DNA of 64,000 nt from Halothiobacillus sp. (GTDB lineage Bacteria > Pseudomonadota > Gammaproteobacteria > Halothiobacillales > Halothiobacillaceae), in contig JADQCE010000003.1 in NCBI GenBank assembly GCA_016278265.1, positions 124,001 to 188,000 of the forward strand, in the 5' to 3' direction. A model generated the notes under the pieces. That model was not told the origin of the DNA. It saw only the letters and a program-made list of their open reading frames with translations, and made no database searches. Shown here in pieces: positions 54,595 to 60,758 of the stretch; the first letter of the stretch is position 1, and each line of letters opens with the position of its first letter. The position numbers and the translations under genes were made by a program.

Positions 54595-55665
54595 GTGACC
54601 CGACTGGCGACACTGCATGTCGAGCGGTTCCGCAACCTCGAACCGCTCGATCTCGAGCCGGCGGCCGGCATCAACCTGATCAGCGGGGCCAACGGGGCCG
54701 GCAAGACCAGCCTGCTTGAGGCGATTCACACCTTGAGCCTCGGTCGTTCCTTTCGCGGCAACAACGCCAGCGAGCTGATCCGACACGGTGCCGACGACCT
54801 GTTGCTGCGTGCCGAGGTGAAAACCCAGGCCCGGCACACCACGCATCGGCTTGCGTTGCAGCGCGACCGGCGCAGCATGACCCTGCGGGTCGACCAGGAA
54901 AACGTCTCCCGGCTGAGCGAACTGGCGCGGCTGTTACCGGTGCTCGCCCTCCACCCGCAATCCGACGACCTGATCCTCGGCTCGCCGGATTACCGGCGTC
55001 GCTTTATCGACCGTGTCGGCTTCTATGCCCGGCCCGACTTCCACGGCATCCACCGCGATTTCCAGCGCGCGCTCAAGCAACGGAATGCCCTGCTGCGCCG
55101 GGGTCAACGCGAGCCGGCCTGGAATCAGCTCTACCTCGAGACCGCTCGCCGACTCGAGACGGCACGACGAGACGTGCTAGCAGAACTCAACCAACGGATC
55201 ACCGGACTCCTGGAGCGGATGCTCCCAGGCAGTGCGTTGGCGTTGCGCTACCTGCCCGGTTACCGCCAGGATATGGATCTCGAGGAAGCCCTTCGCCAGG
55301 GTGCCGACCGCGAACGCGACCAGCAGTCGAGCCTGTTCGGTCCCCATCGGGCGGATCTGAAGATCGCACTTGACGATCACGAAGCCCGGCAGGTCGCCTC
55401 CCGCGGACAGATCAAGATGCTGGTGGTGCTCCTGCATCTGGCGGTGCTCGATCTCTGGGCCGAGGTGCGGGGTGAACCCGCGGTGGTCCTGTTCGACGAT
55501 TTGGCATCGGAACTCGATGCCGACAATCGCCGCCGTGTGCTGGATTACCTAGGCGCGAGTGGCCACCAGGCGTTCGTCAGCGTAATCGCCGCCGATGCCA
55601 TCGACGGGGAAGGCGATATCGAGGCGCGCTTTGCCGTTTCGGCGGGCCAGGTCACCCCGATGTGA
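54595..55665 (+). CDS. recF: DNA repair and replication protein RecF
   Basis: A 356-aa ABC-type ATPase. The P-loop is SGANGAGKTSLLEAI, the signature region is ASRGQIKMLVVLL and the Walker B is VVLFDDLASELD. GTG start at 54595, 10 bp after dnaN. Loads RecA at gaps. Confidence 0.94.
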   Translation: MTRLATLHVERFRNLEPLDLEPAAGINLISGANGAGKTSLLEAIHTLSLGRSFRGNNASELIRHGADDLLLRAEVKTQARHTTHRLALQRDRRSMTLRVDQENVSRLSELARLLPVLALHPQSDDLILGSPDYRRRFIDRVGFYARPDFHGIHRDFQRALKQRNALLRRGQREPAWNQLYLETARRLETARRDVLAELNQRITGLLERMLPGSALALRYLPGYRQDMDLEEALRQGADRERDQQSSLFGPHRADLKIALDDHEARQVASRGQIKMLVVLLHLAVLDLWAEVRGEPAVVLFDDLASELDADNRRRVLDYLGASGHQAFVSVIAADAIDGEGDIEARFAVSAGQVTPM

Positions 55666-55726
55666 GTGATGCCAGCCTCGGATAGGCAGGTTGATGACCA
55701 GGCCGGTCCGAGGTTGGGCGGGAAAA

Positions 55727-58275
<2,549 letters not shown>

Positions 58276-58337
58276 CTCGCCGTTATCGAAGCAACTGAAC
58301 CCCGTCACCGCGGGGTAGCCACGGAGGCGACCAAACC

Positions 58338-58910
58338 ATGGGCATCGCACTGTCGATTATCGTTTTCCTGCTGGTGCTGGTCCTTATCTGGGGGATCATC
58401 ATCTTCAACGGCCTGGTGCGGCTGAAGCACAACGTCTCGCAGTCCTGGTCGAACATCGACGTGCTGCTTCGGCAGCGTCACGACGAGTTGCCCAAGCTCG
58501 TGGAGACCGCCCGCCAGTACATGCACTACGAGCGCGACACGCTCGAACGGGTCATGGAAGCGCGCGCGGCGGTCAATGACGCCCAGCAGCGCGGCGACGT
58601 CGCCGCGCTGGGCGGTGCCGAGCAGGGCTTGCGCCTTGGTCTGGGCAACCTGTTCGCGGTGGCCGAGGCCTACCCCGAGCTCAAGGCCAACGAGACCTTC
58701 CGGCACCTGCAGCAGCGCATCACCGGATTGGAGAACGAGATTGCCGACCGGCGCGAGTTCTACAATGCCGCGGTGAACACGAACAATATCCGCATCGAAC
58801 AGTTCCCGGATGTCGTGATTGCGCAGCTGTTCCGATTCCGGGCCTTCCGGCTGCTGGAATTCGACCGCAAGACGACCGAAGACGTCGATGTGAAGGCCCT
58901 GTTCAGCTGA
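58338..58910 (+). CDS. lemA: LemA-family membrane protein
   Basis: A 190-aa protein: one N-terminal membrane helix (about 3-25) and a cytoplasmic or periplasmic helical bundle with NGLVRLKHNVSQSWSNIDVLLRQRHDELPKLVETARQYM and ETFRHLQQRITGLENEIADRREFYN, the family signatures. Function of LemA is unsettled; in several bacteria it accompanies a GIDE-type protein, as here (34 bp downstream). Confidence 0.93.
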   Translation: MGIALSIIVFLLVLVLIWGIIIFNGLVRLKHNVSQSWSNIDVLLRQRHDELPKLVETARQYMHYERDTLERVMEARAAVNDAQQRGDVAALGGAEQGLRLGLGNLFAVAEAYPELKANETFRHLQQRITGLENEIADRREFYNAAVNTNNIRIEQFPDVVIAQLFRFRAFRLLEFDRKTTEDVDVKALFS

Positions 58911-58944
58911 CCCTGGCTGTCTCGCGCCGTCTGGTTGCCGCTCG

Positions 58945-59892
58945 ATGCAGGATGCAATAGCCGATTGGTTGACCGGGCTAGACCCGGGGTTCTACCTCGT
59001 GCTCTGGCTCGGGTTGCTGATCCTGCTGTTGATTAGCCTATTCGTCGGTTTTCGCACCCTCGCCCGTGCGCGGATCATCGCGCACACCCCCACCGCCAAA
59101 CTTCGCTCGGCCGCCCAGGGATTCAACGAGATCGAGGGAACCGGACGGGTAATCGATGAGCAACCCCTCTACTCGCCGCTGACCTTTACCCGGTGTCTGT
59201 GGTTCGAAATGAAGATCGAACGGCTCGAGTCCAGCGGCAAGAACCGCAACTGGGTGACCGTTCAGCGGCGGACGAGCGATTCCTTGTTGCGGGTCGATGA
59301 CGGGACCGGCGAGGCGTTTGTCGACCCGGATCACGCCCGGGTAATCCCTCATTCCAGTCGACGCTGGCGCGAGCGCTCCCCGGGCTCCGACTGGTCATCG
59401 ACTTCCTCGCTCGGTTTCGGCGGCAAACCGTATAGGTATACCGAACGGTTGTTACTGCCCGAACAGCCTATTTACGTACTCGGCTGGCTTGAAACCCGCG
59501 GGCATCGGAACGGCGGCGTCACCGAACGCGAAACGATTGATCAGCGCCGCCGCGAACTGTTGCAGGAATGGAAACACGACGAGGCCGCTCGCAATCGTTT
59601 CGATCTGGATGGCGATGGAGAGATCTCGCCGCGTGAATGGAATTGGGCGATGCGCCTGGCCCAGGCGCAGGCACGCAAGGAATTCAGCGAGGCCGATCAA
59701 CCCCGATTGAGCGCCAGTAACACCGTGCATCTTCTACACCGGCCACCCGGTGGCGAGCCGTTCATCATTTCCGGGTTGCCGCAGGAAACACTGATACGCC
59801 GAAAGACCCACAAGGCTGGCGCGTTCATCGTCGCTTCGCTGGTTTTGTTCGTGATCTGGCTGATCGCTCAGGGGGTTCGTACGCCGTTTTGA
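58945..59892 (+). CDS. GIDE-domain membrane protein with an EF-hand
   Basis: A 315-aa protein with an N-terminal membrane helix (about 17-37), a GIDE-type domain (about 60-180; GTGRVIDEQPLYSPLTFTRCLWFEMKIER and LLRVDDGTGEAFVDP), and a C-terminal membrane helix (about 290-310). Between them a canonical EF-hand loop lies at residues 220-231: D220, D222, D224, E226, S228 and E231 as calcium ligands. It is probably translated with lemA. GIDE is named from the mitochondrial E3 ligase MUL1, but no RING finger is present here. Confidence 0.82.
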   Translation: MQDAIADWLTGLDPGFYLVLWLGLLILLLISLFVGFRTLARARIIAHTPTAKLRSAAQGFNEIEGTGRVIDEQPLYSPLTFTRCLWFEMKIERLESSGKNRNWVTVQRRTSDSLLRVDDGTGEAFVDPDHARVIPHSSRRWRERSPGSDWSSTSSLGFGGKPYRYTERLLLPEQPIYVLGWLETRGHRNGGVTERETIDQRRRELLQEWKHDEAARNRFDLDGDGEISPREWNWAMRLAQAQARKEFSEADQPRLSASNTVHLLHRPPGGEPFIISGLPQETLIRRKTHKAGAFIVASLVLFVIWLIAQGVRTPF

Positions 59893-59966
59893 CGAGCCGC
59901 AGATCGCCCGGTTTCTGCGAGAATGGCCTTAGAATTTCGATCAAGGATTCCCCGAGGCAGACGTGC

Positions 59967-60758
59967 ATGAACATCGCCAGTTGGAACGTCAATTCCCTGA
60001 AGGTTCGCCAGCCGCAGGTACTGGACTGGTTGGCCGACCAGCCCGCCACCCTGCTCGGCTTGCAGGAGCTAAAGCAACTTGACGAGGCCATCGATCGCGA
60101 GGCGATCGAGGCGGGCGGCTACCGTGTGATTGCCAACGGTCAGAAGACCTACAACGGGGTGGCCTGGGTGTATCCATCCCACTGGCCGGAACCGACCGAT
60201 GTCGTCACCGATATTCCCGGCTTCGAAGACCCCCAACGGCGGGTGATTGCCGCGACATTTGGTGACCTGCGGGTAATCAACCTCTACGTGGTCAATGGCG
60301 AGGCGGTCGGTTCGGAGAAATACGCCTACAAGCTGTCCTGGTTGGAGGCCCTGACTCGGTGGCTGGCCGAGGAGGCCGGCCGTTACGCCAAACGCGTGGT
60401 GGTGGGGGATTTCAACATCGCCCCCACGGACGCCGACGTCCACGACCCCGAAGCCTGGCGGGACCGTATCCTCTGCAGCACCCCCGAGCGCGAAGCGCTC
60501 GACCGCATTCTCGAGACCGGATTGATCGACGCCTTCCGCCTGTTCGATCAGCCGAAGGAAGCGTTCTCATGGTGGGATTATCGGCAGGCCAATTTCCGTC
60601 GGAATCGCGGCTTGCGGATCGATCTGATCCTCATCAGTGATGCCCTGCGCGATCAGGCCCGGGCCTGCCGGATCGACGTGGATCCCCGTCGCTGGGAGCG
60701 CCCGTCAGACCATGCGCCGGTGGTACTGGAACTCGACCACGGCGCGCCCGGAAGCTGA
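59967..60758 (+). CDS. xthA: Exodeoxyribonuclease III
   Basis: A 263-aa AP endonuclease. Motifs: MNIASWNVNSLKVRQPQVL, LGLQELKQ, VVVGDFNIAPTDADVHD and the terminal PSDHAPVVLEL with catalytic Asp/His. The ATG at 59967 is the family start; the in-frame upstream codons are not coding. Convergent with glnE, 15 bp apart. Confidence 0.96.
   Translation: MNIASWNVNSLKVRQPQVLDWLADQPATLLGLQELKQLDEAIDREAIEAGGYRVIANGQKTYNGVAWVYPSHWPEPTDVVTDIPGFEDPQRRVIAATFGDLRVINLYVVNGEAVGSEKYAYKLSWLEALTRWLAEEAGRYAKRVVVGDFNIAPTDADVHDPEAWRDRILCSTPEREALDRILETGLIDAFRLFDQPKEAFSWWDYRQANFRRNRGLRIDLILISDALRDQARACRIDVDPRRWERPSDHAPVVLELDHGAPGS

Follow-up and report, generated by a model that had tools for sequence, protein, structure and literature searches.

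The lemA and GIDE-EF genes of the window

The DNA analyzed here (the window) is a stretch of 64,000 nucleotides from a Halothiobacillus sp. genome of 2.73 Mb. On its plus strand, recF, gyrB, lemA, a gene for a membrane protein with a GIDE domain and an EF-hand (GIDE-EF), and an exonuclease III-type gene follow one another, after which glnE lies on the minus strand; the neighbours other than lemA and the GIDE gene were named from reading their translations. The features are listed in Table 1, and the spacing between lemA and the GIDE-EF gene is 34 bases. LemA scored 150 bits against PF04011 (cut-off 26.2) and has an N-terminal membrane helix, as expected of the LemA family, and it matched PDB 2ETD at 2.2e-24. 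The GIDE-EF protein matched Pfam GIDE (PF12483) at 4.2e-12, with 46.3 bits against a curated cut-off of 23.6. With this domain predicted to lie between two membrane helices, it can be assigned to the GIDE/BAM family, and its closest named relatives were found on Guyparkeria contigs. Scans of positions 55600-60200 detected no promoter-like site and terminator-like sites at chance numbers only, and PADLOC matched the GIDE-EF protein to no defence system. The positions given in the preliminary description of this DNA for both genes and for the loop (residues 220-231, 59602-59637) were exact and were recovered here. The two membrane helices, GIDE domain and EF-hand that it listed were also found, and the arrangement was refined by placing the EF-hand in the segment that links the GIDE beta domain to membrane helix 2.

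Table 1. Features of lemA and the GIDE-EF gene (A2, alignment of 87 sequences; model, AlphaFold2).
Feature	Position	Strand	Extent and evidence
lemA ribosome-binding site GGAGG	58323-58327		
lemA	58338..58910	+	190 aa; Pfam LemA PF04011 5.7e-44
LemA N-terminal membrane helix			~residues 5-23; hydropathy
LemA four-helix-bundle domain			residues 36-186
GIDE-EF membrane protein gene	58945..59892	+	315 aa; matches in 97/369 sampled class genomes
Long helix with membrane helix 1	58984..59085	+	residues 14-47; AlphaFold2 model, hydropathy, positive-inside count
GIDE/BAM beta domain	59119..59502	+	residues 59-186; PF12483, strands in model
Helices entering EF-hand	59524..59601	+	residues 194-211 and 213-219; model, alignment A2
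Canonical 12-residue EF-hand loop DLDGDGEISPRE	59602..59637	+	residues 220-231; ligands kept in 108-109/111 homologues
Long helix leaving EF-hand	59629..59712	+	residues 229-256; model
Last strands of soluble part	59722..59772	+	residues 260-276; model
C-terminal helix with membrane helix 2	59782..59880	+	residues 280-312; model, positive-inside count

The fold of the GIDE-EF protein was predicted by AlphaFold2 with a 19-sequence alignment (pLDDT 81) and with an 87-sequence alignment (pLDDT 92.5, pTM 0.78). The model places a helix at residues 213-219, the loop, and a helix at residues 229-256, with a pLDDT of 96-97 over this block, so that the helix-loop-helix expected around residues 220-231 is borne out at the level of the prediction. 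Searches of the PDB with both models returned nothing under an E-value of 0.001, and the BAM beta domain is thus left with no detected solved relative. Neither a RING finger nor a protease domain was matched by Pfam in the LemA/GIDE-EF pair. Since just three residues follow membrane helix 2, there is no space for a RING, and the initial statement that the GIDE protein has none therefore holds. The C-terminal RING that marks E3 ligases of the MAPL/MUL1 type is absent from the GIDE-EF protein. The prokaryotic BAM/GIDE proteins (PF12483; relatives of MAPL/MUL1) likewise carry the beta domain between two membrane helices, and all members examined are without a RING (PMC4457424), as is the case here.

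Conservation of the EF-hand loop

A six-frame scan of the window (127,996 residues) gave the strict EF pattern once, at residues 220-231, and the pattern arose in 23 of 300,000 shuffled versions of the GIDE-EF protein. A chance match could be argued from the Pfam EF-hand score of the single protein, since the window protein matched EF-hand_5 at 4.7e-4, which is under the curated cut-off for a single hand. The rarity of the pattern speaks against this explanation, and its conservation, with the loop kept in 109 of 111 homologues, refutes it, so that we regard it as extremely improbable. In alignment A2, which consists of the window protein and representatives less than 62% identical to one another, 74 of the 87 members matched EF-hand_5 and 85 matched GIDE at E<=0.01. 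The profile of A2 also matched troponin C and calmodulin at ~1e-6, with the similarity confined to the EF segment, and W209 and K210, ahead of the loop, were near-invariant.

Loop conservation was counted in 111 aligned homologues with a median identity of 31% to the window protein, a set that includes some close relatives and tandem copies. Asp1, D/N/S5, Gly6 and Glu12 were each kept in 109 homologues, N/D3 in 108 and I/L/V8 in 110, while W or F directly followed Glu12 in 109; this is the pattern of a canonical EF-hand loop. The ten best-conserved positions of the GIDE-EF protein include D220, G225 and E231. The EF loop is, as judged from this alignment, under strong constraint. The preliminary description had made its reading depend on retention of the Asp/Glu ligands in the orthologues, and each ligand was kept in 108-109 of the 111.

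The motif occurs once per chain, and the second EF-hand that usually partners a canonical hand was absent. Known EF-hand sensors usually pair two hands, a rule that is usual and not universal, and a lone hand is often a weak binder unless the protein dimerises. Losses of the loop were rare: it is missing at L108, and at L113 together with its segment, and both loci retain lemA. The L108 gene (L108:2863-3807) is a lemA-adjacent GIDE gene of genome G172, which carries a second GIDE gene elsewhere (L037) with the EF loop kept and no adjacent lemA. A split of roles between the two is possible.

Association of the GIDE-EF protein with LemA

Genomes sampled across the Gammaproteobacteria were searched with a profile built from 19 members of the family (A1), and 97 of 369 were matched, a few of these matches being partial, weak or without the EF segment. 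Roughly one in four of the gammaproteobacterial genomes sampled has the order lemA then GIDE-EF gene. A phylum sample of 398 genomes gave 13 hits, all in Gammaproteobacteria, and the protein is likely restricted to this class as far as that sample goes, its share of genomes from other classes not being stated. The plasmids searched contained no relative.

In 98 of 110 loci, lemA lay directly upstream on the same strand, and one further locus (L044) has it within a long frame that overlaps; several of the loci without this order are tandem copies or lie at contig ends. LemA was found in 95 of the 97 genomes with a match, compared with 153 of the 272 without one (Fisher p = 2.4e-17). The two genomes lacking it, G147 and G308, gave weak matches only, and the locus from one of them (L121) has no EF loop. 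In a tree of 132 LemAs, those adjacent to GIDE-EF genes grouped into a single clade (99/82) that 98% of bootstrap trees contain, and the LemAs beside M48/HtpX, TPM or DUF2207 proteins fell outside it; the partner types in this tree were assigned from translations, its bootstrap is not fully settled and two of its branches are very long. These genomic comparisons show the pairing of LemA with the GIDE-EF protein to be genuine and conserved, with co-inheritance of the two genes, and the neighbourhood of LemA and GIDE-type proteins noted at the outset was confirmed by adjacency, co-occurrence and the LemA clade alike. A third constant neighbour was sought in 60 loci and none was found, the gene downstream being oligopeptidase A in 17 and gyrB being present in 8. 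In one locus of G206 (L075:1636-4845), three GIDE-EF genes stand in tandem behind lemA, and each of them keeps the EF loop. A single 759-aa frame in G098 (L120:2212-4488) has the order GIDE-GIDE-LemA, with LemA at the C-terminus and no EF-hand. This fusion is a natural link between the GIDE and LemA families, occurring in one genome, which is the sole member of its family in the set.

The LemAs of the class sample that fall outside the GIDE-EF clade (L140-L159) precede genes for M48, TPM or DUF2207 membrane proteins. This suggests that LemA is a general partner whose lineages largely track the partner type. The genome of the window itself has a second lemA, with an M48 protease gene of the HtpX type immediately behind it (L136:4503-6116), and two adjacent, mutually similar glycine-rich proteins are encoded beside this pair (L136:1808-4414). 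In the LemA-HtpX (M48), LemA-TPM and LemA-DUF2207 pairs, LemA is directly upstream of its membrane partner, as here, whereas GIDE-EF is a fourth kind of partner, set apart by a LemA clade of its own and a putative metal-binding motif. These neighbours, together with the oligopeptidase A gene downstream of some loci, are consistent with an adaptor of membrane-protein quality control like LemA-HtpX, in which the loop would contact a protein client and calcium would not be sensed. However, every metal ligand is kept, and not surface residues alone, and the pair has no protease domain, so we consider such an adaptor highly unlikely.

Membrane topology and a possible calcium switch

The charges flanking the membrane helices were counted in the homologues. 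For helix 1 of the GIDE-EF protein there were 0.7 K/R per 12 residues before the helix and 2.69 after it, and for helix 2 the values were 3.33 before and 0.71 after. The positive-inside bias was seen after helix 1 in 97 of 108 homologues and before helix 2 in 105 of 108. For LemA, the K/R count was 0.18 ahead of the helix against 2.2 over the 15 residues that follow, and the bias was present after the helix in 129 of 135 LemA frames, some of whose loci overlap. The bias on both proteins predicts that the EF-hand and the soluble domain of LemA are cytoplasmic, and a cytoplasmic EF-hand makes a low-calcium switch likelier than a structural periplasmic site. In the reversed topology, the GIDE domain and the EF-hand would be periplasmic and would read or use the millimolar Ca2+ outside. 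This orientation agrees with the BAM domain of human MAPL, which faces the intermembrane space (PMC4457424), and with a prediction that places the soluble domain of LemA outside the cytoplasm (PMC3905215), which contradicts our charge count. Across about 100 homologues the counts for each of the two helices point inward, as do those for LemA, and we therefore hold the reversed topology to be quite unlikely.

We tentatively favour, at somewhat less than even confidence, a reading in which the GIDE-EF protein and LemA form a cytoplasm-facing switch for a divalent cation, probably Ca2+, that controls a LemA scaffold. LemA and GIDE-EF would constitute a two-protein inner-membrane module with both soluble parts in the cytoplasm. 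A rise in cytoplasmic Ca2+ would load the single EF-hand with a divalent cation, Ca2+ being the likeliest, and binding would reorient the helical hairpin of residues 194-256. The reoriented hairpin may then alter the hold of the GIDE domain on LemA or on a client organised by LemA, which would make the pair a calcium-gated membrane scaffold. That the cation is Ca2+ rather than another metal, that LemA and GIDE-EF are in direct contact, and the regulatory step itself are points that we infer. The calcium-responsive module put forward in the preliminary description, with Ca2+ binding altering the contact between the GIDE protein and LemA, is therefore supported in part, through the pairing, the conserved ligands and the predicted helix-loop-helix. 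The window genome encodes two Na/Ca-exchanger family proteins, which make calcium export plausible. Homologues at L108 and L113 without the loop, and the loop-less L120 fusion, indicate that the module is able to work without it. The leading guess for the client process is membrane-protein quality control, by analogy with LemA-HtpX.

The main rival to the switch is a static structural metal site, in which Ca2+ or Mg2+ would be permanently bound and hold the hairpin to the GIDE domain within a constitutive scaffold. The hand is single, its ligands are conserved as strictly as structural residues elsewhere in the protein, and in the model long rigid helices flank the loop on both sides, all of which fit such a site. 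On the other hand, free Ca2+ in the cytoplasm would be too scarce for a static site that binds weakly, the conserved Glu12, a residue that biases known EF-hands towards Ca2+ and away from Mg2+, speaks against a preference for Mg2+, and two homologues without the loop exist. Taken with these points, a structural site appears somewhat unlikely. The broader form of the switch reading, that GIDE-EF gates LemA in a dedicated cytoplasmic calcium-sensing module widespread in Gammaproteobacteria and thus in an undescribed Ca2+ signalling system, is put forward more tentatively than the switch itself.

The window protein departs from the prokaryotic BAM/GIDE proteins in the conserved EF-hand that follows its beta domain and in its co-inheritance with a dedicated LemA clade, and the account of that family mentions neither an EF-hand nor LemA (PMC4457424). 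MamQ, a LemA-family protein of magnetosome formation proposed to be a hub that organises membrane proteins, shares the family of the window LemA, but no GIDE or EF partner is described for it (PMC4902198), and the window LemA reached 71 bits against the NCBIfam MamQ model (cut-off 250). EfhP of Pseudomonas aeruginosa, a bacterial Ca2+-binding protein tied to Ca2+ regulation, resembles the GIDE-EF protein in its EF-hand; it has two hands rather than one, and its abstract mentions no GIDE domain or LemA partner (PMC9132961). A literature search, whose scope left aside preprints and most subscription papers, returned no paper combining LemA with an EF-hand. The parts are each known, and none of the papers searched describes a dedicated LemA clade whose GIDE partner bears an EF-hand.

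To our knowledge, bacterial cytoplasmic calcium signalling has no broadly conserved, clearly built sensor, and we know of no settled function for either LemA or the bacterial GIDE domain. D220 and E231, on the co-inherited partner of LemA, offer one mutable set of residues that bears on calcium sensing, LemA and GIDE together. The GIDE-EF protein and LemA look like an undescribed bacterial calcium-sensing pair that is directly testable.
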